Source of the DNA: Roseovarius sp.
GTDB taxonomy: Bacteria; Pseudomonadota; Alphaproteobacteria; Rhodobacterales; Rhodobacteraceae
Reading direction: 5' to 3'
DNA: 36,222 nt
Assembly (NCBI GenBank): GCA_002720475.1
Contig: PBIL01000014.1
Span: 1-36,222 of the forward strand
Shown: piece after piece, positions 5,374-34,227 of the stretch
Position numbering within the stretch: the first letter of the stretch is position 1
Layout of the letters: the number at the start of each line of letters is the position of its first letter
Made by a program: the position numbers and the translations under genes
The notes under the pieces: model-generated
Databases searched by the model: none
What the model was told of the DNA's origin: nothing
The model's input: the letters and a program-made list of their open reading frames with translations, nothing else

Positions 5374-5401
5374 TTGACCTCCGCGTAGACCTGCGTTGCA
5401 T
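5374..5401 (+). promoter_or_regulatory. Weak candidate sigma70-type promoter for phaC
   Basis: TTGACC at 5374-5379 is followed 16 bases later by TTGCAT (5396-5401), a poor -10 (3 of 6). If used, transcription would begin near 5408 and exclude the ATG at 5400, which favours the ATG at 5448 as the phaC start. Confidence 0.25.
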
Positions 5402-5447
5402 GGCGCGCGAGACCGCAAACCTCACCGATACGATTGGACGGCAAGAC

Positions 5448-16218: not shown

Positions 16219-16452
16219 GCCGGAATGCGACACGGCCAGAACCTCCATGAGACCTTCCGTGCCATCGGCGAGCATGCCTTCCATGTCGTCCTCGGCCGCG
16301 GCGGTCAGCACGTCAGAGGTCAGGATCGAGGGGTCTGCCTCGGCGCGTTCCTTGAGACGCTCGATGGCGTATCTCACGGCTCGTTTTGAAGTCGCGAAAT
16401 GGGTCAGCTTTGGCCATCCGGCAAGGCTACGAAACCGCCCTGCCCGGCTCAA
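16196..16452 (-). pseudogene. Internal fragment of a HAD-family phosphatase fused in frame to a secreted protein
   Basis: About 60 residues, R-L-K-E-R-A...D-D-M-E-G-M-L-A-D-G-T-E-G-L-M-E-V-L-A-V-S-H-S-G-M-S-V-E-A-F-Q-A, match the helical cap region of a bacterial HAD phosphatase group (typically ...K-A-L-x-E-I-x-A-x-T-H-x-G-M-T-x-E-x-F). The DxDGT motif that should precede it and the rest of the fold that should follow are missing. The match stops at about 16196, where the signal peptide of the next protein begins in the same frame. It looks like a deletion junction. Confidence 0.5.
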
Positions 16453-16834: not shown

Positions 16835-16852
16835 TCATGCGTGGGTGTTACC
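16808..16852. repeat. Inverted repeat GGTAACAC / GTGTTACC flanking the ftsH promoter -10
   Basis: Two perfect 8-base arms (16808-16815 and 16845-16852) with 29 bases between. One lies within the spacer of the candidate RpoH promoter and the other just after the predicted transcription start. Arm centres are 37 bases apart, about 3.5 helical turns. It could be a paired operator or an RNA stem in the leader. Confidence 0.4.
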
Positions 16853-16883
16853 AACTCCACGAATGGCAACAGGAGGCACGGGC

Positions 16884-18716
16884 GTGGAGAAGAAGACCGA
16901 GTTCAACATCTGGTACTGGATCCTCGCGTTTCTGGCGGTGATCCTCATTCAGGACATCGTCGCCGGATATCGCAGCGTCGCGCCGATCAGCTACAGCCAG
17001 TTCGAGCGGTATCTTGCCGACGGGCAAATCGCCTCGGTGGCGGTCGGTGCCGACACGATTACCGGCTCCTTCAAGATCCCGGTGGATGGCAAGAGCCGGT
17101 TCGTGACCACCATCGTCGATCCCGCGATCATGGAGCGGCTTGACGAGGCGGATGTCGAGATCACCGGCGTACCACAGAACACCTGGATCGGCACGCTGCT
17201 GTCCTGGATCCTGCCCGCGCTCGTGTTTTTCGGGCTGTGGATGTTCGTCTTCCGAAAATTCGCCGAACGGCAGGGATTCGGTGGCTTCATGCAGGTCGGC
17301 AAGTCCAAGGCCAGGATCTACATGGAAAAGGAGACCGGCGTCAGCTTTGCCGATGTCGCCGGGGTGGACGAGGCCAAGGCCGAGCTGGAGGAAGTCGTCG
17401 AGTTCCTGCGCGCGCCCGAGGAATACGGGAAACTGGGTGCCCGCATCCCGAAGGGTGTGCTGCTGGTCGGGCCGCCGGGCACCGGCAAGACGCTTCTGGC
17501 GCGCGCCGTGGCGGGCGAGGCCGGCGTCACCTTCTTCTCGATCTCCGGCTCCGAGTTCGTGGAGATGTTCGTGGGCGTCGGTGCGGCGCGGGTGCGCGAC
17601 CTGTTCGAGCAGGCCCGGAAATCCGCGCCGGCGATCATCTTCATCGACGAGCTCGACGCGCTTGGCCGCGCCCGCGCATCCGGCCAGATCTCGGGCGGCC
17701 ATGACGAACGCGAGCAGACGCTCAACCAGTTGCTCACCGAACTCGACGGGTTCGACCCCACCTCGGGCGTCGTGCTTCTGGCCGCGACCAACCGGCCCGA
17801 GATCCTCGATCCCGCGCTCCTGCGCGCGGGCCGCTTCGACCGGCAGGTGCTGGTGGACAAGCCCGACAGGAAGGGGCGCGTGCAGATACTCGGCGTCCAC
17901 CTGAAAAAGATAAAGCTGGCGCGGGACGTCGACGCCGAGAAGATCGCGGCGCTTACCCCGGGGTTTTCCGGGGCCGATCTGGCGAATCTCGTCAACGAGG
18001 CCGCCCTGCTGGCGACCCGCCGTCGCGCCGACGCCGTGACGATGGAGGATTTCAACAATGCCGTCGAACGCATCGTTGCCGGTCTCGAGAAGAAGAACCG
18101 CCTTCTCAACCCGAGGGAACGCGAGATCGTGGCCCATCACGAGATGGGGCACGCGCTGGTCGCCATGGCCCTGCCGGGCGTGGACCAGGTGCACAAGGTG
18201 TCGGTCATTCCGCGCGGCATCGGGGCGCTCGGCTATACCATCCAGCGCCCGACCGAGGACCGGTTCCTGATGACGCGGGAGGAACTGGAGAACAAGATCG
18301 CGGTCCTGCTGGGCGGGCGCGCGGCCGAGAAGATCATTTTCGATCACCTCTCGACAGGTGCCGCCGACGACCTCGTGAAGGCCACCGACATCGCCCGCGC
18401 CATGGTGGCCCGCTACGGCATGGACCCCGATCTGGGACATGTCAGCTATGACACCGACCGGCCCGGATTTCTCGGTACCGGCGACCAGTCGTCCTGGCTG
18501 AACCGCCGCTACAGCGATGCCACGGCCGAACGCATGGACGCGAAGGTGCGCGCGCTGATCGACACCGTATTCGACCGGACACTGACCATCCTGGAGGTCA
18601 ATGCCGATCTCCTGCGCGAGAGCGCCGCGCAGCTTCTCGAGAAGGAGACGCTCGACGAGGCCGACCTGTCGGAGATCGCGGCCAGGGTGCATCACCCCCG
18701 CAACGCCGCGGCTTGA
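16884..18716 (+). CDS. ftsH: ATP-dependent zinc metalloprotease FtsH
   Basis: Membrane-anchored AAA+ protease that extracts and degrades damaged or regulatory proteins. The 610 residues contain TM1 near 10-27, a periplasmic domain to ~105, TM2 near 110-130, Walker A GPPGTGKT at 196-203, Walker [10 protein letters not shown], the second region of homology, and the zinc site HEMGH at 419-423 (third ligand Asp in D-D-L-V-K-A). I chose GTG 16884 because AGGAGG stands seven bases upstream. ATGs at 16845 and 16863 lack a site and would add an unlikely leader. It heads a run with clpG and is probably a second, stress-specific FtsH, as in transmissible protein-quality-control loci. The tail is short and lacks the long acidic extension of many housekeeping FtsHs. 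Confidence 0.93.
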
Positions 18717-18785: not shown

Positions 18786-21686
18786 ATGGCCAACGGAAAA
18801 TGCGACATCTGCGGACGCCCCGCCACGACGCGCGTTCGGGCCTCGGTCAATGGCCAGGTGCGGGACATGGAGCTTTGCGATCAGCACTATAGAGAGATGG
18901 TGAGGCGCTCGGGGCACAGCGCCTCGCCGCTGGAATCGCTGTTCGGGCGGCGCTCGCTCTTCGATGAGTTCTTCGGCGATAGCGGATTCGGCAGCCTGTT
19001 CGGCGACACCCCCTTGCGCCCGGGCGCGCTCGGCGGGGCGGGAACCGGCGAGGATGACACAGTTGCAGCAACCTTCGGCAACGAAGCCGCCCGCCGCGGC
19101 GCGCGGCGCGGGGCGGGCGGGGCCAGCATCGCCGACCGGCTGAGCGAACAGGGCAACAAGCTGTTGCAGGAGGCCGCGCAGAAGGCCGGGGAACTGGGCC
19201 GCAGGGAGGTTGACACCGAACACCTGCTGATGGCGCTCGCCGGTTCCGACGTGGTGCGCAAGATCCTGGAGCAGTTCAAGCTCGATGCCGATGAGCTGCG
19301 TCGGCAGGTCGAAGCCGATGCGCCCCGTGGCGACGCTGCGACCGAAGGCGAGATCGGCGTCAGCCCGCGGCTCAAGGATGCGCTGAACCGCGCTTTCATC
19401 GCCTCGAACGAACTTGGCCATTCCTATGTCGGGCCCGAACACCTTCTGATCGGCCTCGCCGAGGAAGGTGAGGGCCTCGCCGCGTCGATCCTTCGCAAAT
19501 ACGGACTGACGCCGCATGCGCTGCGCCAGCAGGTTACGAAGGTCGTCGGCAAGGGTGCAGAGGAAGGGCGCGTCGAGCCACCTTCGGACACCCCCGATCT
19601 CGACCAGTTCAGCCGTGATCTGACGAAGCTTGCACGCGAAGGCAAGCTCGACCCCGTCATCGGTCGAGCCCGCGAGATCGAGACCACGATAGAGGTGCTC
19701 GCACGGCGCAAGAAGAACAACCCGGTGCTCATCGGTGAACCCGGCGTCGGCAAGACCGCCATTATCGAAGGGCTGGCACAGCGGATCGTGGCGGGCGAAG
19801 TGCCTGAAGCCCTGCGCGACAAGCGGCTCGTGGAGCTCAACATCAACTCCATGGTTGCCGGCTCCAAGTATCGCGGCGAGTTCGAGGAGCGGGTGCAGAA
19901 GATCCTCAAGGAGATCACCGAACACAAGGACGAGATGATCCTGTTCATCGACGAGGTGCACACGATCGTCGGCGCGGGTCAGGGCGGCGGCGAAGGCGGG
20001 CTCGATATCGCCAACACCTTCAAGCCGGCGCTGGCGCGGGGCGAGCTGAATCTGATCGGTGCGACGACGCTGAACGAATATCAGAAATACATCGAGAAGG
20101 ATGCCGCGCTGGAGCGCCGCTTCCAGCCGGTCTATGTCGACGAGCCGACCATTGCCCAGGTCATCATGATCCTGCGCGGCCTGCGCGACACGCTGGAGGC
20201 GCATCACAAGGTGACGATCACCGACGAGGCCATCGTCGCGGCGGCCGAGCTGTCGGATCGCTACATCACCGGCCGCTTCATGCCCGACAAGGCAATCGAC
20301 CTGATCGACCAGGCCGCGGCGCGTGTGAAAATCTCGGCCACCGCGCGCCCCGTGGACGTGCAGGAGCTCGAAGCCGAGGTCGCGCAGATCAAGCGCGAGC
20401 AGGACTACGCCGCTGCGCGCAAGCAGTTCGATCGGGCCGCCGAACTCAAGAACGAGCTCGAGACCAGGCAGAAGGAGCTCGACGACCTGCTGGAGGTATG
20501 GAAGCGCGACCGGGCCTCGGCCACGGCCGAGGTTCGTGCCGACCATGTGGCACAGATCGTGTCGAAGATCACGGGCGTGCCTGTGACCGAGCTGACGACC
20601 GAGGAAAAGGACAAGCTGCTCAAGCTCGAAGAGCGGCTGCACGAGCGCGTCATCGGCCAGGATGAGGCGATCCACGCTGTCGCCGATGCGGTGCGCCTGG
20701 CGCGTGCCGGGCTGCGCGAAGGCAGCGGCCCCACCGCGACCTTCCTGTTCCTCGGTCCGACCGGCGTGGGCAAGACCGAACTTGCCAAGACGCTTGCCGA
20801 TGCGATCTTCGGCGACGAAGACGCGATGATCCGTATCGACATGTCGGAATATGGCGAACGCCACGCCGTCGCGCGTCTGGTCGGTGCGCCTCCGGGCTAT
20901 GTCGGCTACGACGAAGGCGGCCAACTGACCGAGAAGGTCCGCCGCCGGCCCTATTCGGTCGTTCTGCTCGACGAGATCGAGAAGGCGCACCCGGATGTCT
21001 ACAACATCCTGCTTCAGGTGTTCGACGATGGGCGACTGACCGACGGCAAGGGGCGCGTGGTGGATTTCACCAACACCATCATCATCGCCACCTCGAACCT
21101 CGGGTCCGACATCATCCAGCGAAATCTCAAGAAGCGCGGGACCAAGGAGTTCGACGAGGCGGGGCAGAAATCGGAACTGATGGAGGTGCTGCGTCACCAT
21201 TTCCGACCGGAGTTCATCAACCGGATCGACGAGATCATCGTCTTCCACTCGCTGAACCAGTCGGAAATCCGCCAGATTGTCGAGTTGCAGCTTGGTCGTG
21301 TGAAGCGAACCGCGGCGGGACAGGGTGTCGAGCTGGAATTTGACGTCAGCCTGATCGATCATTTCGGCGCGGTCGGTTTCCGCCCCGAGTTCGGTGCCCG
21401 CGAGTTGCGCCGGCTGATCCGGTCGGAACTGGAAACCGAACTCGCTCGCGCGATGCTTGCGGGTCAGGTCGAGGACGGCGACACGGTTCGTGTCGCCTGG
21501 TCGGCGGACGAACAGAAGGTCGTGTTCGAGAAAATCGCAAAGAAAGACGGTGAGGGAGATCAGGCTGCGGCCGGGTCCGACATCGCCGAAGAGACCGATG
21601 AAGGCACAGCGGAAGCCGCGACGTCCGATGTCCCGGACGATGCCAGGAAGAACGCACCGTCGAAGGACGATCAGCCAGCCAAGTGA
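18786..21686 (+). CDS. clpG: ClpG/ClpK-type stand-alone AAA+ disaggregase
   Basis: 966 residues. The N-terminal N1 region has a zinc-finger-like C6-x2-C9...C31-x2-H34 set followed by [13 protein letters not shown], diagnostic of ClpG/ClpK rather than ClpB or ClpC. A double Clp-N domain (~115-260), NBD1 with GEPGVGKT at 317-324, a short coiled middle domain (~520-600) and NBD2 with GPTGVGKT at 657-664 follow. An acidic, disordered tail ([15 protein letters not shown]) closes the protein. ClpG enzymes dissolve aggregates without DnaK and give extreme heat tolerance in P. aeruginosa and Klebsiella islands. GGAGG stands before the ATG, 69 bases after ftsH. No small heat-shock protein is linked here. 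Confidence 0.92.
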
Positions 21687-21766: not shown

Positions 21767-22906
21767 ATGAAGGTCACCAGGGCATTTCGCAATCTCGATC
21801 GCCATGGGCAACAGCGCGCGCCGGAAGTCATCGAGGAAGAGCTGCGTCAGATCGCGCCGCATCTCGAACGGTTCAACAAGGATCTCGTGCGGCTCGACGT
21901 TTCGGCCTCCCAGACGCGGGGCAAGACCCGTATCCATGTCAGCCTGCGCCTGCAATTGCCCTCGGGTGTGGTCGCGGCCCAGGAAGACGGGTTCGAGATC
22001 GAGCCGGTGCTGCGCGAAGCCTTTGCGGCTCTTCGCCGTCGAGTCGATCGACATGTGGCGCGCCTGACGCACGAACCGGAGTGGAAACGCCGCGACCGGC
22101 GGCGGCGGATCGGTGCCCCCCTGCCACCAGTGCGCGATGCCGTGGACGCGGAACGGCGCGCCCTCTTCTTCCACCTGATCGAGGATCATCTGGATACGGT
22201 CTATGACACCGTGCGGCGCGAGTTGACCTATCTCGAAGCCAGCGGATCCGTGCCGGAGGGCTATCTCAGCGTGCGCGCCCTCGTCGATGCGACGATCCTC
22301 AGGGCACTCGACCGGTTCGAGCAACGGCCGAGCGAATTCTCGGTCGGAGACTGGCTGACGCAACTGGCCTTCGAGACCATCGAGGCCGAGGCGCAGGCCG
22401 CGCGTCGCGCGGTGCCCGATGATGCCGCCTCGATCCACGCGGAAACCGAGGCACCGGCACAGGAACCGACCGGGTCCGATCAGGACATGTTCGAGTTCTA
22501 CCAGCCCGACGACGTCCTGCTGCTTGAGGATCTCATCGCAGACGATGCGGAAGACACCCCCGAAACAGAGACCGCAGCACGGGAAACCGCGCTCGCCTTG
22601 CACCGGGCGGTCGCCGGTCTTCCGGCCCTCTGGCGCAGGGTGTTGTTGCTCGTCGACCTGAAGGATTTCTCGCTTGAAAGAGCCTCTTCGGTTCTCGGCC
22701 TTCCGGAAGACGAGGTGACACGCATCGCGCAATCGGCTCGAAGCTGTCTGCGCGAGAAGTTGCGCGAGTTCGGGCACACCCCGGACGCGGCGAGCAAAGC
22801 GATTGACCGCGCCCGAGAGCAGAGCTCGCGCATCCCGCAACCGCTGCAGGATCGCAGCCGGGTCGAACAGGCCTTTCTGGGCATGAGCCAGGGAGAGATG
22901 TCATGA
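21767..22906 (+). CDS. HPF/RaiA ribosome-hibernation-like domain fused to a sigma-factor-like domain
   Basis: 379 residues in two parts. Residues 1-~118 look like an HPF/RaiA (S30AE) domain: an initial K-V-T-R-A-F-R-N-L-D strand, a helix E-E-E-L-R-Q-I-A-P-H-L-E-R-F, then V-H-V-S-L-R-L-Q-L-P and a basic exit R-R-D-R-R-R-R-I-G. Residues ~130-225 are helical and could be a worn sigma region 2. After an acidic linker, ~285-335 (LPALWRRVLLLVDLKDFSLE...LGLPEDEVTRIAQSARSCLREKL) is a typical ECF region 4 helix-turn-helix. The protein could tie ribosome status to promoter choice. It overlaps the next gene by ATGA. Both domain calls are from motif reading; the combined function is unknown. Confidence 0.7.
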   Translation: MKVTRAFRNLDRHGQQRAPEVIEEELRQIAPHLERFNKDLVRLDVSASQTRGKTRIHVSLRLQLPSGVVAAQEDGFEIEPVLREAFAALRRRVDRHVARLTHEPEWKRRDRRRRIGAPLPPVRDAVDAERRALFFHLIEDHLDTVYDTVRRELTYLEASGSVPEGYLSVRALVDATILRALDRFEQRPSEFSVGDWLTQLAFETIEAEAQAARRAVPDDAASIHAETEAPAQEPTGSDQDMFEFYQPDDVLLLEDLIADDAEDTPETETAARETALALHRAVAGLPALWRRVLLLVDLKDFSLERASSVLGLPEDEVTRIAQSARSCLREKLREFGHTPDAASKAIDRAREQSSRIPQPLQDRSRVEQAFLGMSQGEMS

Positions 22907-23481
22907 TGCACGGCCATAACCGTCCGCCCTTCCCACCGAAGATGCCGGGGACCGACATGAGGTCCTGGGACGTGCCGACGGCGATCATCTACCGCCCGGC
23001 ACGGTCCGCGATGACCTCTGCGCCACGCCCGAACGACTGGATCCTGGAATTCCAGCCATCGCGCCCGCCGACGATCGAGCCGCTCATGGGGTACACGTCC
23101 AGCAACGATCCCTACCGTCCGATCAGGCTCAGGTTCCCTGACCGCGAAAGCGCCGTGGACTTCGCGGAACGCCAGGATTGGCCCTACATCGTGCGCGAGG
23201 ACTCTCCGCACCGGCCTGCGTCAAACCGTTGGCGCGGACAGGAACGGCATCGGCTCCACAAGGGTGCCGAGGCACCGGGGGCCTTCCATATACCGTCCGG
23301 CAAAGGTCGGGGGCGCTCGGATCATCGCCTCCATCGCGCGGTCGATGGGAAAGGCGTGGTGGACCTGTCCTGGCCGGAAAGCCGCGATTTCGACCCGGTT
23401 CTCGAAGCCGATCTCGAGTCCTTCCCAGCCTCCGATCCTCCGGCATGGACGGGCGTGACGATAGCCGCAAAGAGATCGTGA
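22903..23481 (+). CDS. NDUFS4-like (ETC complex I 18-kDa subunit) protein with SFPASDPP tail
   Basis: 192 residues. Residues ~24-98 (I-I-Y-R-P-A-R-S-A-M-x-S...W-I-L-E-F-x-P...P-L-M-G-Y-T-S-S-N-D...I-R-L-R-F-P-x-R-E-S-A-V-x-F-A-E-R) match the NDUFS4-type domain of complex I accessory subunits, which are usually ~100 residues. A low-complexity His/Arg/Gly stretch (~110-150) follows, then an acidic end D-L-E-S-F-P-A-S-D-P-P-A-W-T-G, a tail seen on various small proteobacterial proteins. GGGAGAG precedes the ATG, which overlaps the previous stop. The middle may be a frame-shifted or newly captured segment. A role in respiration under stress is inference. Confidence 0.7.
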   Translation: MMHGHNRPPFPPKMPGTDMRSWDVPTAIIYRPARSAMTSAPRPNDWILEFQPSRPPTIEPLMGYTSSNDPYRPIRLRFPDRESAVDFAERQDWPYIVREDSPHRPASNRWRGQERHRLHKGAEAPGAFHIPSGKGRGRSDHRLHRAVDGKGVVDLSWPESRDFDPVLEADLESFPASDPPAWTGVTIAAKRS

Positions 23482-23831: not shown

Positions 23832-26486
23832 ATGAACGACATCCTGATCTTCGCCGACCGGACCGATGCCGGCCGCAGAATCGCCTTGGAACTTGCGAAA
23901 CGAACGATCGAATCTCCCGCCGTTTATGCCCTGCCCAGGGGCGGAGTGCCCGTGGCGGTAGAAGTTGCCGAGGCGCTCGGCGCGCCGCTCGATCTGGTCT
24001 TGGTACGCAAGATCGGTGCGCCGGCCCAACCCGAGGTCGCCCTTGCCGCCGTGGTTGAAGGCGAGCCTCCCCAGATGGTGATCAATGAAGAGGTGATGCG
24101 CCGTTCCGGCGCGACCGAGACCTATCTCGCCCGCGAGCGTGATCGCCAGATCCAGGAGATGCTGCGCCGGCGGACCCGCTATCTGGGCTCGCGCGCGCGC
24201 GTCGATCCCGCCGGGCACACTGCCATCGTCGTCGATGACGGGCTCGCGACGGGGGCCACGATGAAGGCGGCGATCACCGCGCTGCGACGGCAGGGAGCGA
24301 AGCGCATCATTGCCGCGGTTCCCGTCGCGCCCGAATCGGAGGTCGCGGCCCTGCGCGAGATCGCCGACGATGTGGTCTGCCTCTCCGCCCCGCGGTTTTT
24401 TCGCGGGGTCGGCGGTGCCTATCAAGACTTTCACCAACTCAGCGATGAGGAAACCATCGGCTATCTTCGCCGTGTCTGGACCCTGGCAGCCGAGGTCGAT
24501 GGCGAGCCCATGCTGCAGCGCGGGGTGAAGATCCCACCCCTCGGTCTCGACGGCGATCTGGTCTTCCCGCCCGAGCCGCGGGGGATCGTGCTCTTCGCCC
24601 ATGGCAGCGGATCGAGCCGGCTCAGCCCGCGCAACATCGACGTGGCCGGGAGCCTCAACAAGATGGGATTCGCCACGCTGCTTCTGGATCTCCTCACGCC
24701 GCAGGAAGCCGAGGACAGGCGCAACGTCTTCGACATTCCGCTGCTGGCCGAGAGGCTTCTCGAGGCGGAGATGTGGATCAGCGCCGAGCCAGAGTTGGCT
24801 GAACTGCCCCTGGGGCTTTTCGGCGCCAGCACAGGCGCGGCGGCGGCGCTTCTGGCGGCCGCAGAGCTTGGATCGCGGATTTCGGCCGTCGTATCGCGCG
24901 GCGGGCGTCCCGATCTGGCCGGGCCGCGCCTTTCGGATGTGACGGCACCGACGCTGCTGATTGTCGGCGGAAACGACACCCAGGTTCTGGACCTGAACCG
25001 GAAGGCCCTCGCGCAACTGAGATGCGAAAGGCTGCTTCGGATCGTCCCGGGCGCGGGGCATCTGTTCGAAGGGCCCGGCCAGATGGAGGCGGTCACCGAA
25101 TTCGCCGGCGCGTGGTTCCAGCACTATCTCGTGGCAGCCGCAGAGCAGGAACTCGCGCCGCGGCGCGAGTCCCTCGCACCGCCGCCCGCCACCCCCGCGG
25201 ACGTCCTGCGCGCCGCCGCCGAGCCGTTGCCCGATCCGGAGGATCCGGGCTTCGGCGCGGTCTTCGACCGTTTCGGCGAAGCAAGGGTTGTCCTGCTCGG
25301 CGAGGCGTCCCATGGCACCTCGGAATTCTACCGCGCCCGCGCCGCCATCACCCGGCGGCTGATCGAAAGGCACGGCTTCAACATCGTCGCGATCGAGGGG
25401 GACTGGCCCGACGCGGCCACGATCGACCGCCATGTCCGGGCCCTGCCCGCGCGCAGGCGCAACGTCCCACCCTTCACCCGGTTTCCCACATGGATGTGGC
25501 GAAACAGGGATTTCGATGACTTCGTCGGCTGGTTGCGGCACCACAATGCCGGCCGCGCCCCGGACGAAAAGGTGCGCGTTCAGGGGCTGGATCTCTACAG
25601 CATGTTCAATTCCCTTGCCGAGGTTCTGGCCTATCTCGATGGGGTCGATCCCGAGGCCGGGGCGGTGGCGCGGCGGCGATATGCCTGCCTGGCACCATAT
25701 TCGCACGAACCCGCCGCCTATGGTCGCGCGGCGCTGACCCAAGGTTATGCCATGTGCGAGGAACCGGTGAATCGCGTCCTTGTCGATCTGCTGGCCAAGG
25801 AACTGTCCTATGCTCGCCGCAACGGCGAGGCGTTCTTCGATACCACCCAGAACGCCCGCGTCGTGCGCGATGCCGAGCGCTATTATCGCGTGATGTATTA
25901 CGGCTCGCATGAAAGCTGGAACCTGCGCGACATCCACATGTTCCAGACCCTCAAGCAGATCATGGACCATGTGGGCGAGCAGGCAAAAGCCGTTGTCTGG
26001 GCGCATAACTCGCATATCGGCGACGCGCGTGTGACCGACATGGGCGTCAACCGGGACGAGTTGAACATCGGGCAGCTTTGCCGCGAGGAATGGGGAGAGC
26101 AGGCGCAGTTGATCGGTTTTGGAACCCACACCGGCACGGTGGCGGCCGCGTCCGACTGGGACGGCCCGATGGAAGTCAAGGCGGTTCGCCCCTCGCGCCC
26201 CGACAGCCACGAGGCCCTGTGCCACGAGATCGGCGTCGAGCGTTTCCTGCTCGACCTGCGCCGCGGCGTCAACGACCCGCTTCGCCAGGTCATGTCCGAA
26301 CCGCGGCTTGAGCGTTATATCGGGGTGATCTACCGCCCTGAGACCGAGCGCTGGAGTCACTACAGCCACGCCTTGCTGGGCCAGCAGTATGACGGCTTCG
26401 TATGGTTCGACCGGACCAGCGCCGTGGTGCCACTGCCCACGCAGGCGGGACGCGGCGAGGACGAGACCTATCCCTTCGGGCTGTAG
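23832..26486 (+). CDS. Phosphoribosyltransferase / alpha-beta hydrolase / erythromycin-esterase-like fusion
   Basis: 884 residues, three domains. Residues 1-~215 form a type I phosphoribosyltransferase with the PRPP loop V-V-D-D-G-L-A-T-G-A-T (~132-142). Residues ~225-440 are a dienelactone-hydrolase-like alpha/beta hydrolase with nucleophile Ser333 in G-A-S-T-G and a late G-A-G-H-L-F-E-G. Residues ~470-870 are an erythromycin-esterase (EreA/B-like) domain with G-E-A-S-H-G (E491, H494), I-E-G-D-W-P-D and A-H-N-S-H (725-728). Proteins pairing PRTase with the esterase domain (Rv2030c type) belong to the M. tuberculosis DosR hypoxia regulon. Here a FNR-type box lies upstream. AGGAG stands nine bases before the ATG. 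The substrate is unknown; macrolide hydrolysis is not implied. Confidence 0.87.
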   Translation: MNDILIFADRTDAGRRIALELAKRTIESPAVYALPRGGVPVAVEVAEALGAPLDLVLVRKIGAPAQPEVALAAVVEGEPPQMVINEEVMRRSGATETYLARERDRQIQEMLRRRTRYLGSRARVDPAGHTAIVVDDGLATGATMKAAITALRRQGAKRIIAAVPVAPESEVAALREIADDVVCLSAPRFFRGVGGAYQDFHQLSDEETIGYLRRVWTLAAEVDGEPMLQRGVKIPPLGLDGDLVFPPEPRGIVLFAHGSGSSRLSPRNIDVAGSLNKMGFATLLLDLLTPQEAEDRRNVFDIPLLAERLLEAEMWISAEPELAELPLGLFGASTGAAAALLAAAELGSRISAVVSRGGRPDLAGPRLSDVTAPTLLIVGGNDTQVLDLNRKALAQLRCERLLRIVPGAGHLFEGPGQMEAVTEFAGAWFQHYLVAAAEQELAPRRESLAPPPATPADVLRAAAEPLPDPEDPGFGAVFDRFGEARVVLLGEASHGTSEFYRARAAITRRLIERHGFNIVAIEGDWPDAATIDRHVRALPARRRNVPPFTRFPTWMWRNRDFDDFVGWLRHHNAGRAPDEKVRVQGLDLYSMFNSLAEVLAYLDGVDPEAGAVARRRYACLAPYSHEPAAYGRAALTQGYAMCEEPVNRVLVDLLAKELSYARRNGEAFFDTTQNARVVRDAERYYRVMYYGSHESWNLRDIHMFQTLKQIMDHVGEQAKAVVWAHNSHIGDARVTDMGVNRDELNIGQLCREEWGEQAQLIGFGTHTGTVAAASDWDGPMEVKAVRPSRPDSHEALCHEIGVERFLLDLRRGVNDPLRQVMSEPRLERYIGVIYRPETERWSHYSHALLGQQYDGFVWFDRTSAVVPLPTQAGRGEDETYPFGL

Positions 26487-26837: not shown

Positions 26838-29525
26838 TCACCCCGCCTTTGCGGAAAGCCGAAACCTCAAAGTGATCCAGGCCTGCCCGAAAACCAGGGG
26901 CACGAGGCTTGCGACGGCGGCCAGAGCGAGACCGGTGCCTCCCGGGGCATCAAGCTTGAGCAGGCTCGCCAATGGCGGGAGAAAGAGTGCAAGACCGATC
27001 AGCCCGAGGCTGAGCGAGATGGCCCCCCAGACATAGCGGTTGCTCGTCACATCGTTGCGCAGCAAGCCCGCCTCGGGATCGCGCATGTTGAACACGTTCC
27101 ACAACTGGCCGATGGAGAGTGTCGTGAAAGCGACCGTGATGGCCGGCCCCGTGTCTAGCCCAAGCCAGTAGAGCGACAGGCCGAACGCGCCGAGGGTGGC
27201 CACGGTGATCGAAGCGCCGAGCACGGCAATGAGGACCCAGTGCTCGCGCAGGACAATCGACTCGCTGGGGTCGCGCGGGGGCCTTTTCATGACATTGTCG
27301 TCGCCGCGCCCGAGGCCGAGCGCGAAGGCCGGAAAAACATCCGTCACCAGGTTCAGATACAGGATCTGCAACGGCAGGAGCGGCGTCGGCAATCCGCCGG
27401 CAATGGCGAGCCCCACCACGAGAACTTCGCTCAGGTTGCACGACATCAGGTAAATCACGAATTTCCGGATATTTCCGAAGATCACCCTGCCCTGTCGCAT
27501 CGCGGCGATGATGGTGGGAAAGGAATCGTCGCGCAGCACCATGTGGGCCGCCTCCTTGGCGACCTCTGTCCCGCGCTGGCCCATGGCGATCCCGATGTCG
27601 GCCTTCTTGAGGGCGGGCGCGTCGTTAACCCCGTCGCCTGTCATCATCACGACATGGCCGGCCTGCTGGTAGAGCGCGACGAGCGTCAGCTTTGTCCTGG
27701 GTGCGACCCGGGCGAAGACATCGGCCGACAGCACACGTTTGCGGAGATCCTCGTCTGCCTCGTCCGCATCGACACCGGCGATCTCGCTACCCTCGACCAC
27801 GGTCAGCTCGCCATCCGCCAGACCTGCGGATCTGGCGATGGCGCGTGCCGTTTCGGCATGATCGCCGGTCAGCATCACGACTCGGACGCCCGCCGAGCGG
27901 CTTGCCGCAATGGCGTCGGGCACATCTCTCCGGATGGGATCGCGCAGGCCGACGAGCCCGACAAGCGTGAGATTCCCGTAGGGTTCGGCGTCCGGTGCGG
28001 CCCGCTTCATGGCCAGCGCAAGAAGTCGCAATCCGTCGCGCGCCGCCTCGGCGCTTCGCGCGTTCCAGTCCTCGCGCCCGGCGTCGTCCAGCGGTTCCGG
28101 TCCCTCGGCCCCAAGGACTTGGGTGCATGCCTTGATGACGGCTTCGGGCGCGCCCTTCACGGCAAAGACATGGCTCTCCCCGTCGCCGTGAACCGTCGCC
28201 ATCATCTTGAGGCCAGGATCGAAGGCGTGTTCGTTCTCCTTCGGGTGATCCTGCAGCAGGTTGTCGCGGGACAGACCAGCCTTTTTCGCGACTGAAAGAA
28301 GTGCGATCTCCATCGGGTCGCCCGCCCGGCCATCCTCGGAGCCATCGCCAAGTTCGGCGCTGTTGCACAGCGCACCGACACGAAGCGCCCAGGCAAGACG
28401 GTCGTCCTTCCCCGGATCGATGGCCTCACCGTCCGCCTCGAAACCTTCTCCTCCGTCGTCGACCGAAACATCAGAACCAGCCAGAAGATAGCGTGCCGCA
28501 GTCATCCGGTTTTCCGTCAGTGTGCCGGTCTTGTCGGTCAGGATCACCGTGGTTGCGCCAAGGGTCTCGACCGAGGAAAGCTGGATGATCAAGGCGTTGC
28601 GTTCACTCATCCGCCACATGCCCCGCGCAAGGCTGAGAGTGGCGACCACCGGCAGGCCTTCGGGCACGGCGGCCACGGCAAGCGCCACGCCGGTCTGCAC
28701 CATGACGGCGATCTCGTAGCCTCGCAGGATGCCCGCGGCGATCGTCAGCGCGGCGAGTCCCAGAGTCAGCCAGACCAGACGGCGGCCCAGCCTGTCGAGA
28801 CGCCTCTCCAGCGGCGGCACCTCGCCCTCGGCGCTTTGCGCGAGGTCGCTGATCTGCCCGATCTCGGTATCCATCCCTGTCGCCACGACAATGCCCACGC
28901 CCGAGCCTTGCGTGATCGCGGTGCCCTTGAACGCCATGCTGGCGCGGTCGCCCAGCGCCGCATCAGCGGCCACCGGCGCAACCGCCTTGCCGACAGGAAC
29001 CGACTCCCCCGTGAGGACGCTTTCGTCGGCCTGAAGGTTCGATGCTTCGACAAGCCTCAAATCGGCCGTCACCACGTCGCCCGCCGCAAGAACGACCAGA
29101 TCGCCCGGGACCAGTTCATGGGCCTCGATCATCCGTTCCTCGCCCCCCCTGCGGACCCGTGTGCGGATCTCGGCGATCCGCATCAGCGCCTCCATCGAGC
29201 GCGCGGCGCGCAGCTCGGTGAAGAAACCGATCGCGCCGTTGATGACGAGGACGACGATAATGGCTGCCCCTTCGGCGTTATCGCCCAGCACGAAAGACAG
29301 CGCTGCCGCACAGCTCAGCAGACAGACAATGACACTTTCGAATTGGTGCTTGAGGATGGCAAGAAGGCCCTTGCGCTCCTTTTTCCGCAGCTTGTTGGGA
29401 CCATGCTCCTTGAGCCGCCGACGCGCCTCGTCCTCAGAAAGACCGGAAGCGGGATCGACCCCAAGCGCCTCGGCGATGGCGCTTGCCTCTCGCGCAAAGG
29501 CGGTCTCCGAAACATTCTTCAACAT
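26838..29525 (-). CDS. P2-type cation-transporting ATPase at the end of the arc operon
   Basis: 895 residues. A cation-ATPase N-terminal domain (~12-70, G-L-S-x-x-E-A-R-R-R-L-x-x-x-G-P-N), LTGES, PEGLP at 288-292 in TM4, phosphorylated Asp331 in DKTGTLT, MTGDGVNDAPAL and a C-terminal six-helix block. TM4 Glu289, TM5 N-L-S-E and TM6 N-L-V-T-D match the SERCA ion ligands, so Ca2+ (or Mn2+) is likely; Na+/K+-like P2 pumps cannot be excluded. No HMA domain is present, unlike the 367-3285 pump. GAAGGAAGAG precedes the ATG at 29525. It lies 76 bases after arcC on the same strand, so it is probably co-transcribed. Confidence 0.9.
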   Translation of the reverse strand: MLKNVSETAFAREASAIAEALGVDPASGLSEDEARRRLKEHGPNKLRKKERKGLLAILKHQFESVIVCLLSCAAALSFVLGDNAEGAAIIVVLVINGAIGFFTELRAARSMEALMRIAEIRTRVRRGGEERMIEAHELVPGDLVVLAAGDVVTADLRLVEASNLQADESVLTGESVPVGKAVAPVAADAALGDRASMAFKGTAITQGSGVGIVVATGMDTEIGQISDLAQSAEGEVPPLERRLDRLGRRLVWLTLGLAALTIAAGILRGYEIAVMVQTGVALAVAAVPEGLPVVATLSLARGMWRMSERNALIIQLSSVETLGATTVILTDKTGTLTENRMTAARYLLAGSDVSVDDGGEGFEADGEAIDPGKDDRLAWALRVGALCNSAELGDGSEDGRAGDPMEIALLSVAKKAGLSRDNLLQDHPKENEHAFDPGLKMMATVHGDGESHVFAVKGAPEAVIKACTQVLGAEGPEPLDDAGREDWNARSAEAARDGLRLLALAMKRAAPDAEPYGNLTLVGLVGLRDPIRRDVPDAIAASRSAGVRVVMLTGDHAETARAIARSAGLADGELTVVEGSEIAGVDADEADEDLRKRVLSADVFARVAPRTKLTLVALYQQAGHVVMMTGDGVNDAPALKKADIGIAMGQRGTEVAKEAAHMVLRDDSFPTIIAAMRQGRVIFGNIRKFVIYLMSCNLSEVLVVGLAIAGGLPTPLLPLQILYLNLVTDVFPAFALGLGRGDDNVMKRPPRDPSESIVLREHWVLIAVLGASITVATLGAFGLSLYWLGLDTGPAITVAFTTLSIGQLWNVFNMRDPEAGLLRNDVTSNRYVWGAISLSLGLIGLALFLPPLASLLKLDAPGGTGLALAAVASLVPLVFGQAWITLRFRLSAKAG

Positions 29526-29601
29526 CTTCTCTTCCTTCTTGCGCCCGCCGATACCCGGCCGGACGAGATCGTGCCGGCGGTCGGCGCTCATCGAGGAATT
29601 G

Positions 29602-30525
29602 TCAGGTGCCTTCGGCAGGCGCGATCCGGGTTCCGGCACGCCCTTCAAGAATGTCGATCGCGTCTCCAAGCCGCCCGATCCCGGCCATCCGCGCCCCAGC
29701 ACCATCCGCAAAGCGGGCTGCGGCCTCGGCCTTCGGCGCCATGGAGCCCGCAGGCAGATCGAGCGCGGTGGCTTCACCGGGCGACAGGCGGTCGATACGC
29801 CTTGCCGCGTCGGTGCCGAAATCTCGTTGGATGCCATCGACATCCGTCAGCAACAAAAGCGCATCAGCCCCAACGCTCTCGGCCAGAAGCGCGCTGGCGG
29901 CGTCCTTGTCGATCACCGCCTGCACCCCCGTGAGGCTTCCATCGGGGCGCTCCACAACCGGGATGCCGCCGCCGCCGGCGCAAATCACTATGGTGCCATG
30001 CTGCAGCAGAAGCCGGATCACCTTGATGTCCGGGATCTCCACCGGCGCGGGCGAGGGCACGACGCGGCGCCAGTGTTCGCCATCCTCGGCGATGCTCCAG
30101 CCGTGACGCGCGGCCATCTCGTCGGCCGTGGCCTTGTCATAGACGGGGCCCACGAATTTCGTGGGTGTCTCGAAGGCCGGATCATCTGGGTCAACGCGGA
30201 TCTGGGTCAGCAGCGTGGCGACCGGCATGGCATGGCCGAGGGCGTTCTCGAGTTCCTGTTCGATCAGATAGCCGATCATGCCCTCGGTTTCGGCTCCCAT
30301 CACGTCGAGCGGATATATCTCATCCGGTTTGTAGGCGAGGCCCTGAAGGGCAAGCAGCCCGACCTGCGGGCCGTTGCCGTGGGTTACGACAAGGTCATGG
30401 CCTGCCTCCACAACCCGCGCCAGCGCTTCCGCGGCGATGCGAGCATTCTCGCGCTGGTTCTCGGCCGTCATGGCCTGCCCGCGGACGAGCAGCGCGTTGC
30501 CGCCAAGGGCTGCCACCACCAGCAT
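29602..30525 (-). CDS. arcC: Carbamate kinase
   Basis: Last enzyme of the arginine deiminase pathway: carbamoyl phosphate + ADP gives ATP, CO2 and NH3. The 307 residues fit the family. Motifs: A-L-G-G-N-A-L at the N-terminus, T-H-G-N-G-P-Q-V-G, C-A-G-G-G-G-I-P-V, V-I-D-K-D-A-A and L-L-L-T-D-V-D. The start ATG at 30525 is four bases after the arcB stop with no clear Shine-Dalgarno, so coupled translation is likely. Confidence 0.93.
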   Translation of the reverse strand: MLVVAALGGNALLVRGQAMTAENQRENARIAAEALARVVEAGHDLVVTHGNGPQVGLLALQGLAYKPDEIYPLDVMGAETEGMIGYLIEQELENALGHAMPVATLLTQIRVDPDDPAFETPTKFVGPVYDKATADEMAARHGWSIAEDGEHWRRVVPSPAPVEIPDIKVIRLLLQHGTIVICAGGGGIPVVERPDGSLTGVQAVIDKDAASALLAESVGADALLLLTDVDGIQRDFGTDAARRIDRLSPGEATALDLPAGSMAPKAEAAARFADGAGARMAGIGRLGDAIDILEGRAGTRIAPAEGT

Positions 30526-30529
30526 CGAC

Positions 30530-31531
30530 TCAGCCCGCCAGCGTGGCGACGAGCACCGCCTTGATGGTGTGCAGCCGGTTCTCGGCCTGGTCGAAAACGA
30601 TCGAGGCCGCGCTTTCGAACACCTCATCGGTCACCTCCATCTCGGCGATGCCGAACTCCCGTTCCATCTGCGCGCCCACTTCGGTCTCGGCGTTGTGGAA
30701 GGCTGGCAGGCAATGCATGAAGCGCGTGCGCGGGTTTCCGGTACCCGCCATGACCTCGGCCGTCACCTGATAGGGTTTCAGCAGCTTGATCCGCTCGGCC
30801 CATCTCTCCTTCGGCTCGCCCATCGAGACCCAGACATCGGTGTAGAGGAAATCGGCACCCAGCGTCGCCTCGCTCACGTCCTCTGTGATCACGATCTGCG
30901 CGCCGGTCTCCTTCGCGATCGCGCGCGCCTCGGTCTCGATCTCCGTCGCGGGCCAGCAGGCGCGCGGCGCGCAGAGGCGCACGTCCATGCCCATCTTGGC
31001 ACCTCCGATCAGCAGGCTGTCGCCCATATTGTTGCCGGCATCCCCCAGGAAGCAGAAGGTGATGTCGCGCCAGGGCTTTCCGGAATGTTCCTGCATGGTC
31101 AGGAAATCGGCCAGGATCTGGGTAGGGTGAAACTCATCAGTGAGGCCGTTCCAGACGGGCACGCCGGCGTGGGCGGCCAGCTCCTCCACCACCTTCTGGC
31201 CGAAACCGCGATACTCGATGCCGTCGAACATGCGGCCCAGGACACGCGCAGTGTCCTTGACCGTTTCCTTCCGGCCAATATGCGAACCCGAGGGGCCGAG
31301 ATAGGTGACGTTCGCGCCCTGGTCATGGGCGGCCACCTCGAAGCCCGCACGGGTGCGGGTGCTGTCCTTCTCGAAGATCAGGGCGATCTCCTTGCCAAGC
31401 AGCAGCGGCTGCTCGGTACCGGCATATTTCGCGGCCTTCAGGTCCGCCGACAGCTTCAGCAGGAAGCCAATCTCGGCGGGGGTGAAATCCCGAAGGCTCA
31501 GGAAATGACGGTTCTTGAGATTGTAGGCCAT
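30530..31531 (-). CDS. arcB: Ornithine carbamoyltransferase, catabolic
   Basis: 333 residues. Carbamoyl-phosphate site S-T-R-T-R at 57-61, H-P-T-Q at 135-138, the ornithine-loop S-M-G at 236-238 and H-C-L-P-A at 273-277. In this pathway it runs from citrulline plus phosphate to ornithine plus carbamoyl phosphate. The position between arcA and arcC, and the length typical of catabolic enzymes (~335), support this over the biosynthetic ArgF role. AGGAGAA precedes the ATG; nine bases separate it from arcA. Confidence 0.94.
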
Positions 31532-31540
31532 GCGGTTCTC

Positions 31541-32770
31541 CTATGCCGGGTCGCGGATCGTGGGGCAGCTCATGCAGCGCCCGCCACCGCGACCGCGGCC
31601 AAGTTCGGCGCCCGGCACCTCAAGCACCTCGATGCCCTCGGCGCGCAGGGCGGCATTGGTGTCGTCGTTGCGGTCGTAGCCGACCACTACGCCGGGCCGC
31701 AGCGCCAGCACGTTGTTGCCATCGTTCCACTGCTCGCGCGATGCCTCGAACGTGTCGGTGCCGCCGGTCGGCACGACGGTGAGCCGCTTGAAGCCCATCG
31801 CCCTGGCCAGCACGTCGAACAGTGGCCGGTCGATGCGGCGTATATCGAGCGGCGCACGCCCCTCTCCGGGGCGCAGGTCGTAAACCGTCATTTGGGCGGC
31901 AACCTCGGTAAAGCTGGTCACCACCTCTCCGCCGCAAAAGGTGAAGACGGTATCGAGATGCATCGCGGCGCGTGATTTTGGAAGCTGGCAGGCCAGCACG
32001 CGGGTCGCACGCCCCTGATCGAACAGCGCCTCGGCCAGCAGGCCCACCGCCTGCGGCGAGGTCCGCTCGCCCATGCCGATCAGGACGAGGCCCTCGCCCA
32101 CCGGCATCACGTCTCCGCCTTCCAGCGTGGCGTGACCGAAATCATGCGTGGGATCGCCCCAGAGCACCTCGGCCCGGCCCGCGAACTTGGGGTGGAAGCG
32201 GTAGATTACCGCGCTCAGCAGCGTCTCGGGCCGCCGCGCCCGCCAATACATCGGGTTGAGGGTGACGCCCGAATAGATCCAGGCGCTGTTGTCACGGGTA
32301 AAAAGCGTGTTGGGCAGCGGCGGCAACACGAAGCCGAGCCGCCCGAGATAGGCACCGAACATGCCCGCTGGCTCGAACGGCAGATCGTCCACCGTCAGCC
32401 CGCCCATCAGGATTTCGGCAAGCTCGGGGCCCGAAAGCTCCTCCATCCAGGCGCGCAGCTCGTCCAGCATGCCCACCCCGATCTCCTGCGGCGTGATCCG
32501 GTGATCCAGCACCCAGGCACGCGCCTCCGGACGATCCAGCACCTCGCCCAGCAGCGCGGCGGTATCGAGCACCTCGACCCCCTCGCCACGCATCAGATCG
32601 GCAAAGACGTCGTGATCCTTCTGCGCCTGCTTGACCCAGAACACATCGTCGAACAGCAAATCCTCGCAGTTCTGCGGTGTCAGGCGCCGATGCGCGCGTC
32701 CGGGCCGGCAGACGATCACCTGCCGCAGCCGGCCGGTTTCTGAATGCACGCCAAGCTCGAGATCGCTCAT
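31541..32770 (-). CDS. arcA: Arginine deiminase
   Basis: 409 residues. Hydrolyses arginine to citrulline and ammonia. It has F-T-R-D-N-S, the E-G-G-D-V segment after [12 protein letters not shown] and the nucleophile Cys399 in G-G-G-R-C-M-S-C-P, matching Cys406 of P. aeruginosa ArcA. The ATG overlaps the arcD-like stop (ATGA), with GGGAGG upstream. The open frame extends much further upstream, but that part overlaps the transporter and reads as low-complexity Arg/Gly. With arcB and arcC it gives one ATP per arginine without respiration. Confidence 0.95.
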
Positions 32771-34227
32771 GCCGCACCTCCCATCACGGCGCCGACTGCA
32801 AGCGCCCCCATGATGAAGATCGTCAGGATCGCCAGAAGCGGCCAGATGAACACGATCCAGCGGTCGTAGGGCACCCGCCCGATGGCCAGCCCGCCGATCA
32901 CAACCGCGAAGGTCGGGTTGATCAGGTTCACCAGCCCGTTGGCCGACTGGTAGGCAGTGACGACAAGGTCGCGCCCCACCCCCGCGAAATCCGCAAGCGG
33001 CGCGAGGATCGGCATCGACAGGACAGCCAGCCCGGACGACGATGGCACGAAGAAGCTCATCCCCACCTCGATGCCGAACATCGTCAAGATGAAGGCCACG
33101 TTCGACAGCCCGCCCAGCGTCTGTTCGGAGGCATGCAGGATGGTGTCCGCGATCCGGCCGTTCTCCATCACCACGACAATCCCGCGCGCCAGCCCGATGA
33201 TCAGCGCCACGCCCAGAAGGTCGCGCGCCCCGTCGATATAGGCGCCGGTCAACCGTTTCTCGCCCAGACGCCCGATCAGGCCGACAAGGATGGCCGCACC
33301 GAGAAACAGCGCGCCCATCTTGGCCATCCACCAGCCCTGGCTCGACACGCCCCAGATCATCGCCACGAAGGTCGCCGCGAACACGACGAGGATGATCTTT
33401 TGGGTGCCCGTGAGCGTATCGTCGCCTTCCTCTCCGTGATCGCCCTGGAGGAACTGGCGCTTGTGGGCCTCCCACTGGCGGGCGACGACCGAGCGGTCGT
33501 TCTCGGCCTTCACGCGCGAGGCATAGCGCGTCACATAGGCGATGCATATGGCGAGCCCCCCGATCAGGATCACGAAGCGCAGGACCATGCCTTGGGTGAA
33601 GGGAATCGAGGCCGCGTCCGAGGCGATGATGGTGGCAAAGGGATTGATGGTTGACCCGAGCACACCGATGCCGGCACCGATGAGAATGATCGCGACGCCG
33701 GTGACGGCATCATAGCCCGCGCGCAGCACCACGGGCAGAAGGATCGCGTAAAAGGCAAGCGTTTCCTCCGCCATGCCGTAGGTCGTGCCGCCGATGGCGA
33801 ACAGGGCCATCAGGATCGGGATCATCCAGATCTCGCGCCCCTGCATTGACCGCATCGCCGATCGCATGCCCGTATCGATCGAGCCGGTGGCGTTGACGAC
33901 GCCCAGGAAGCCGCCCAGCAAAAGCACAAACAGCGCCACGTCGATGGCATTGGCCGCGTAACTGTCGGGATCGTAGAAGCCCGCGATGGGTGCCATGAGC
34001 ACGTCGATCGGGCCTTGCGGGTTCGCCTCGACGATCCGGAAGGTGCCGGGCACGGCGACCTCCCGCCCGATCTCCTCGTTCATCGCGCGTTCATACTGGC
34101 CTGCGGGAATGATCCAGGTCAGCGCCGCGACGAGGATGATCAGCAGAAACAGGATCGTGTAGGCAGTAGGAAAGCGCGATTGCAGGTCTGCGTCGGGCTC
34201 AGGCGTCTTTTCCGATGTGTCGGCCAT
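32767..34227 (-). CDS. YfcC/DcuC-family carrier, probable arginine/ornithine exchanger
   Basis: 486 residues with about a dozen hydrophobic helices. The N-terminal F-P-T-A-Y-T-I-L-F...W-I-I-P-A-G-Q-Y is the hallmark of the YfcC (C4-dicarboxylate-carrier-like) family. G-S-T-I-N-P-F-A-T and [11 protein letters not shown] are its conserved re-entrant motifs. A ~55-residue charged loop (ending at DTLTGTQK) divides the halves. As first gene of the arc operon it stands where ArcD usually is, so arginine uptake with ornithine export is the likely job. ACGGAGCG precedes the ATG. Confidence 0.8.

Follow-up and report, generated by a model that had tools for sequence, protein, structure and literature searches.

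The window analysed here, a 36,222-nucleotide stretch of a Roseovarius sp. contig, carries four genes on one strand in the order ftsH-clp-fusion-NDUS4, the third being an uninterrupted open reading frame of 379 codons whose product combines an S30AE-like with a sigma-like half. The genes and the parts of the fusion protein are as follows.

16845..18716, plus strand: FtsH protease gene, upstream of the fusion gene (homology)
18786..21686, plus strand: Clp AAA+ ATPase gene, 88% identical to a Roseomonas one, ending 80 bases ahead of the fusion gene
21767..22906, plus strand: coding sequence of the S30AE/sigma-like fusion protein, 379 residues, P0001 (open reading frame, full-length homologues, dN/dS)
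21830..22066, plus strand: S30AE (HPF/RaiA)-like domain, residues 22-100 (profiles; low-confidence structure model)
22067..22114, plus strand: basic extension beyond the last S30AE helix, residues 101-116 (R108, R111 and R112 invariant in 16 of 16 members)
22139..22411, plus strand: sigma region 2-like helices, residues 125-215 (profiles, alignment, model), with helix 2.2 partly kept and the 2.4 helix (196-213) acidic or neutral
22490..22528, plus strand: linker motif FEFYQPDDVLLLE, residues 242-254 (alignment)
22559..22768, plus strand: sigma region 4-like domain, residues 265-334 (profiles, structure model)
22706..22759, plus strand: position of the region 4.2 recognition helix, residues 314-331, with the usual basic contacts absent
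22903..23481, plus strand: NDUS4-like gene, its start sharing 4 bases with the end of the fusion gene

Reference proteins for Hsp20, YfdX, HdeD, Trx and KefB found no match in the window, where only ftsH, clp, the fusion gene and NDUS4 were matched. Farther out lie two cation P-type ATPases, a PHB polymerase and an arginine deiminase/ornithine carbamoyltransferase/transporter set (367-3285 and 5400-7277, plus strand; 26838-29843 and 30530-34227, minus strand), which suggest a wider stress or anoxia island. In an 884-residue open reading frame at 23832-26486 (plus strand), a phosphoribosyltransferase domain is combined with a stretch resembling alpha/beta hydrolases and a domain of the erythromycin-esterase family.

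An earlier note on this DNA had proposed that two domains share this single 379-residue protein, and had considered a sequencing frameshift joining two genes as a possible source of error. The architecture holds, both halves being matched by profiles within one reading frame. A search of plasmid records returned 86 at E ≤ 1e-5. In 79 of these a single place accounts for 80% or more of the protein, and each of the 16 sequences in the family alignment (A1) is translated as a single open reading frame; on this evidence a frameshift or assembly artefact is rejected. One relative, L005, is itself split over two frames. In 13 of 14 pairs omega lies between 0.12 and 0.37 for the S30AE half and between 0.14 and 0.43 for the sigma half, indicating purifying selection on both; the exceptional pair, L019-L023, has values of 1.13 and 0.74 that rest on very few changes. 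As judged from these comparisons, the S30AE-sigma fusion is a real, conserved bacterial protein.

Alpha-, beta- and gammaproteobacteria all have full-length homologues. Among the plasmid matches listed (40 of the 86), identities are about 60-74% in alphaproteobacteria, about 30% in Burkholderiales and about 26% in Enterobacteriaceae and Acinetobacter; the copy on a megaplasmid of Methylorubrum extorquens AM1 is 68% identical. The gene was matched in 2 of 60 genomes of relatives, the window's own included, in 1 of 35 other genomes of the genus, and at E ≤ 1e-10 in 4 of 289 genomes of the class, one of these matches being an unfused relative; 24 of 398 genomes across the phylum gave matches, most of them to ordinary ECFs, via region 4 or weakly. 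The fusion gene is accessory and patchily distributed. Scans of viral contigs found one locus (L051/L052, on the same contig), and two further such scans found none. L051, on the IMG/VR contig IMGVR_UViG_3300045950_000267, which is filed as viral, has the order ftsH-clp-fusion-NDUS4 together with trx- and kefB-like genes.

The N-terminus, which the earlier note had described as HPF/RaiA-like, is indeed recognised as S30AE by profile search, with scores near the cut-off. Using the single sequence, Pfam Ribosomal_S30AE aligns to residues 22-100 with an E-value of 3e-4 and 21.9 bits (cut-off 23.7); when the genome is scanned with the S30AE family alone, the fusion protein reaches 24.6 bits, which is above it. 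A profile of 14 N-terminal halves (A3), compared with the PDB, gave a best E-value of 2.9e-5, and the first 18 of the 23 sequences listed are of the HPF/RaiA type. By hhalign the N-terminal half matches 25 HPFs over 98 columns with a probability of 72% and an E-value of 3.3e-5, against 0.081 or worse for nine other targets. S30AE is matched at E ≤ 0.01 in 11 of the 16 members of A1; of four gamma members taken singly, S30AE goes unmatched at E ≤ 1 in three and is matched at E 0.06 in the fourth. In a shuffle control (1000 shuffles, of which 594 scored), two reach the weak 3.9 bits of the window protein, and 11 of 16 members beat the best shuffle (6.6 bits), L002 attaining only 0.8 and L003 only 0.2. 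The AlphaFold model places the N-terminal elements in the order helix-strand-strand-strand-helix expected of S30AE, at a pLDDT of about 40-60. Modelled alone, the N-terminus has a mean pLDDT of 49; a Foldseek search with the N-terminal model gave no match at E 0.001, with YfiA-type structures at ranks 2, 4, 8 and 16 (E 0.35-1.7). In the alignment to the 25 HPFs the basic character of the helix end is kept, and the fusion family adds a basic tail. The S30AE assignment appears well supported only at the level of family profiles and is weakest in the gamma members. Each of the 25 genomes of relatives that were searched has a strong S30AE match apart from the fusion protein; in the window's own assembly, which is 74% complete, the fusion protein is the only one. 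Because those 25 other genomes each have a strong S30AE protein of their own, the fused domain would be an extra copy, and it is unlikely to be the housekeeping HPF of the host.

In both the hhalign comparison and the shuffle control the N-terminal half scores far more weakly than the sigma half. Pfam Sigma70_r4_2 aligns to residues 276-326 with an E-value of 2.2e-5 and 24.5 bits (cut-off 25.7), and is matched at E ≤ 0.01 in 12 of the 16 members of A1, while NCBIfam sigma70-ECF extends across residues 136-332 with an E-value of 5.8e-11 and 42.3 bits (cut-off 42.9). A profile of 16 sigma halves (A2) gave a best PDB match, spanning regions 2 and 4, with an E-value of 2.2e-13; hhalign against 19 ECFs gave 1.1e-21; and none of 978 scored shuffles reaches the 69.1 bits of the window protein, the best attaining 9.5. 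The ECF region-4-like C-terminus of the earlier note was correct as to region 4 and incomplete, since region 2 is present too; a module of region 4 alone is rejected because the ECF matches extend through region 2. The model of region 4 superposes on 3hug_E with an rmsd of 0.7 Å and a TMt of 0.94. The whole-protein model (five sequences) has a mean pLDDT of 57, and VIA-align matches span residues 95-339 only. Structure prediction, which had been suggested as a check, yielded an ECF-like fold for region 4 and, for the N-terminal half, a low-confidence model with no significant fold match.

Between regions 2 and 4 the fused members carry a strongly acidic linker (charge -8 to -16), in which Q246, P247 and D248 are invariant in A1 (n = 16) and in both unfused relatives included in A2. 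These residues sit in a FEFYQPD(D/E)-type motif common to the unfused relatives L022 and L028; in a further unfused protein, L008, the linker reads QPE in place of QPD.

Residues were compared in a joint alignment of 14 fused members, the two unfused relatives L022 and L028, which were kept apart, and 19 canonical ECFs, the latter being a set of 21 chosen by match to the fusion family minus two long proteins (L044, L049). Twenty EcfG-like sequences, picked by PF22029 match, and seven PhyR proteins served as comparators, as did, solely in that capacity, the genome scans with PF08281, PF02482 and PF22029. The residues that we take to contact DNA in sigma factors are the asparagine in region 2.4 and the basic 4.2 helix. 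Position 203 is N in 16 of 19 ECFs and in none of the fused members (E in eight, A in four, D and S in one each), and position 323 is R in 14 of 19 ECFs and in 0 of 14 fused members; at position 316, 10 of 14 fused members have E or D, all seven PhyR proteins E, and 13 of 19 ECFs T. The net charge of the 4.2 helix ranges from -2 to +1 in fused members and from +1 to +4 in ECFs, with means of -0.8 and +3.0, compared with +3.9 in the EcfG-like set and -3.4 in PhyR. For the 2.4 helix the ranges are -3 to 0 and 0 to +6, and the means -0.8 for fused members, +3.5 for ECFs, +3.7 for EcfG-like proteins and +0.4 for PhyR; in the unfused relatives L022 and L028 this helix is positive (+1 and +3). The p-values of the comparison (1e-6 to 1e-8) count related sequences as independent and are overstated. 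In helix 2.2, which bears the D..Q/E core-contact motif, D171 is found in 10 of 14 fused members and E in two, and R or K at 179 in 12; position 174, Q in 17 of 19 ECFs, is D in all 14.

The promoter-contact positions of regions 2.4 and 4.2 are, on this alignment, eroded in all 14 fused members compared. Because contact residues and charge are lost, both DNA-reading helices of the family resemble those of a mimic, and because the invariant Q174D change also alters a core-contact position, polymerase binding itself is doubtful. Promoter selection by the C-terminal half, as the earlier note had envisaged it, is disfavoured by the substitutions at 174, 203 and 323 and by the reduced 4.2 charge; it is possible, not favoured. 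The protein would then be a functional ECF sigma factor, released according to the state of the ribosome by way of the S30AE domain, with contacts that have diverged to suit an unusual promoter. Regions 2 and 4 are both present, with ECF matches across the whole module and a predicted region 4 that has the full ECF-like fold; stress operons adjoin the gene, and single members of the family are already annotated as sigma factors in several records. However, basic and polar contacts are lost systematically in both DNA-reading helices, and together with the promoter and neighbourhood data given below this makes a working sigma factor rather unlikely.

The acidic 4.2 signature is shared with PhyR, which raises a different possibility, namely a partner switch in which the sigma-like half titrates an anti-sigma factor and the S30AE half replaces the receiver as sensor. 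Matches to PhyR_sigma-like in P0001 (E 3.4e-4) and in L015 (E 1.1e-5), and an hhalign match to PhyR region 4 (E 1.1e-5), point the same way. However, searches of the fusion protein listed no receiver family up to E 10, and in a maximum-likelihood tree of 177 columns the fused and unfused relatives form, at 97% support, a group that excludes every ECF, EcfG-like and PhyR sequence. In the same tree the fused members are set apart from the rest at 90%, PhyR groups with EcfG-like sequences at 55% only, and L095, which has two open reading frames of expected length, is represented by the plus-strand one. Because the tree separates the clade in this way, its likeness to PhyR would be convergent, and the mimic-like loss of contacts probably arose independently of PhyR. 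PhyR's partner NepR is an alphaproteobacterial protein, yet fusion members also occur in beta- and gammaproteobacteria. A PhyR orthologue is rejected for want of a receiver and by the tree split, and we consider a PhyR-like switch improbable.

The unfused sigma-like relatives reside in stress islands. On an Azospirillum brasilense plasmid (L022:4552-6826) the sigma-like gene is accompanied by DnaJ and DUF5335 and then a baeRF family 10 gene, which, being release-factor-like, gives one unfused relative, in this single case, a ribosome-related neighbour. On a Phenylobacterium zucineum plasmid (L125:7624-8624) it adjoins DUF5335, with Hsp20, Lon and NDUS4 nearby. A gene for a ClpP-like SDH-type serine protease lies near both unfused (L008 region, L123:6889-8142) and fused (L027/L124, L124:8673-10319) sigma-like genes.

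The fused genes have similar company. Nine of 12 annotated fusion loci (L009-L015, L017, L019) list Hsp20, a Clp/AAA ATPase, FtsH, GroEL or DnaK nearby, and the other three (L018, L020, L023) have yfdX and hdeD/DUF308 genes. By tblastn on 15 loci, which include the window and share L014 and L018 with those 12, Clp or DnaK was found in 13; of the remainder, L018 has hdeD and yfdX, and L027 has trx and kefB. In Burkholderiales the fusion gene lies upstream of groES-groEL-dnaK, with divergent Hsp20 genes. Relatives of the fusion gene travel in mobile chaperone/protease or tLST heat-resistance clusters. A homologue of NDUS4, an NADH dehydrogenase subunit, recurs in these stress islands, in the window and in many relatives.

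No conserved anti-sigma gene was seen beside the fusion gene, the neighbours being clp, hdeD, NDUS4, trx and groES, and this counts against a working sigma factor. Autoregulation through an ECF-type promoter was looked for by aligning upstream regions, which revealed no common motif before the fusion gene. A scan of the window for CTTG-N-CYATNT gave two matches against 0.55 expected, a number reached in 11 of 100 shuffles, and neither is near the fusion operon. A looser promoter pattern added one, at 16425 on the minus strand. Candidate RpoH-type promoters (CTTG..., C(C)TATC(T/A)) precede the Hsp20 operons of two alpha and two beta loci, by pattern scan:

L010:4608, minus strand: candidate RpoH-type promoter
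L017:4633, minus strand: candidate RpoH-type promoter
L011:9707, minus strand, and 9727, plus strand: candidate RpoH-type promoters
L015:8658, minus strand, and 8680, plus strand: candidate RpoH-type promoters

In the two beta loci such a candidate also heads the divergent operon leading to the fusion gene. The pattern is a consensus one, applied without a shuffle control, and scattered extra matches occur in L010, L011, L012, L016 and L019. Because a heat-shock sigma factor acting at these candidates could already account for the Hsp20 operons, the islands need not depend on the fusion protein as a sigma factor.

The gamma relatives give the family a place in a well-studied system. The fusion protein is homologous over 341 residues to its counterpart in the heat-resistance locus (tblastn E 9e-10, 27% identity; 29.7% over 364 columns). 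In Enterobacteriaceae that gene, annotated as hypothetical, is the open reading frame between hdeD-GI and trx-GI, called orf11 in the available description of tLST1 (PMC8290217). The flanking by hdeD-GI and trx-GI holds in the gamma loci L012, L019 and L023; in L013 hdeD-GI lies ahead of the homologue, and trx-GI is not annotated behind it. On this homology and position, the distant homologues are orf11 of the transmissible heat-resistance locus (tLST/LHR). The island is of the same kind and the protein homologous, but the window locus has the order ftsH-clp-fusion-NDUS4, and in single gamma sequences the S30AE signal is near or below detection. Of 5,426 complete E. coli genomes, 152 contain orf11 DNA, and in 144 of these 80% or more of the gene is present.

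In E. coli MG1655 lacZ::LHR 13 tLST genes were deleted, and seven of them (sHsp20, clpK, sHsp, pscA, pscB, hdeD and kefB) are reported as needed for heat or chlorine tolerance, orf11 not being named among them (PMC8407380). Deletion of orf11 is also described as leaving lipid oxidation unaltered in E. coli, LHR2 is described as having orfC and orfD inserted in the middle of orf11 (PMC5383660), and a proteome study detected 11 LHR proteins, one of which is given no name beyond 'hypothetical protein' (PMC7010813). These E. coli results argue against orf11 being essential. Such dispensability in the published heat and chlorine tests (PMC8407380) would suit a proteostasis or RNA-binding adaptor whose two halves have both taken on new roles and act directly in neither transcription nor ribosome hibernation; both halves are divergent from their parents, and the linker QPD and the basic tail are among the strongest invariants. 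Yet both folds and part of helix 2.2 appear to be kept under purifying selection, and we think an adaptor very unlikely.

The reading that we prefer, at a probability of roughly 40%, is a ribosome-docked sigma mimic or RNA-polymerase decoy; it builds on homologies, conservation, gene context and contact-residue loss, all of which are read from the sequences. An accessory heat-shock-island protein would use its S30AE-like domain and basic tail to dock on ribosomes that are idle or stressed, and its ECF-derived module would retain its fold and some of helix 2.2, which binds core polymerase, promoter reading having presumably been lost with the contact residues. The mimic might then occupy either RNA polymerase or some regulator of sigma factors, so that transcription would be damped or redirected while heat halts translation and the neighbouring chaperones and proteases repair proteins. 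A sigma mimic or polymerase decoy fits better with the residue pattern than a promoter-selecting sigma factor. A regulator of restart, not of survival, would fit the missing survival phenotype, a fit made after the fact. In a bolder version, which we regard as doubtful, a single mobile protein would park both machines, the S30AE half holding idle ribosomes and the sigma-like half capping RNA polymerase, for a joint stop and restart around heat shock, this being the unrecognised function of tLST orf11. The homology offers a testable identity for orf11, an unexplained gene in an island that confers heat and chlorine tolerance on E. coli and its relatives; part of its interest is that a rare conserved domain fusion proves to be related to a long-unexplained gene of so well-studied an island.

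The earlier note knew of no described system of this kind, and the open-access literature searched likewise yielded no S30AE-sigma fusion. With HPF/RaiA (YfiA) the protein shares the S30AE fold, as judged by profile, and a basic stretch at the domain end; it differs in its divergence, its extra basic tail and the attached sigma module, and no match to a second HPF domain was found in it. ECFs with a fused extra domain, ECF41 and others, are likewise described as carrying a further regulatory domain beside regions 2 and 4 (PMC3426412, PMC8999054), but here the added domain is N-terminal and S30AE-like and the DNA-contact positions are eroded: the ECF hallmark of linked regions 2 and 4 is present, whereas that of -10/-35 contacts (N in 2.4, a basic 4.2 helix) is absent from the fusion members (N203 in 0 of 14). 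PhyR, a sigma-mimic response regulator, has in common with the family the sigma-like module and an acidic or neutral 4.2 helix, but the fusion protein has no receiver, lies on a separate branch and partly keeps helix 2.2; if a sigma lineage distinct from PhyR has lost its DNA contacts, sigma mimicry would have arisen a second time, independently. A functional parallel would be Rsd with RMF/RaiA in E. coli, where restraint of RNA polymerase and of ribosomes is described as coordinated, RMF/RaiA and Rsd being co-regulated by CsrA (PMC10746276). There the proteins are separate and share regulation, whereas here two related functions would share one polypeptide, pointing to a direct physical connection of ribosome hibernation with RNA polymerase control.
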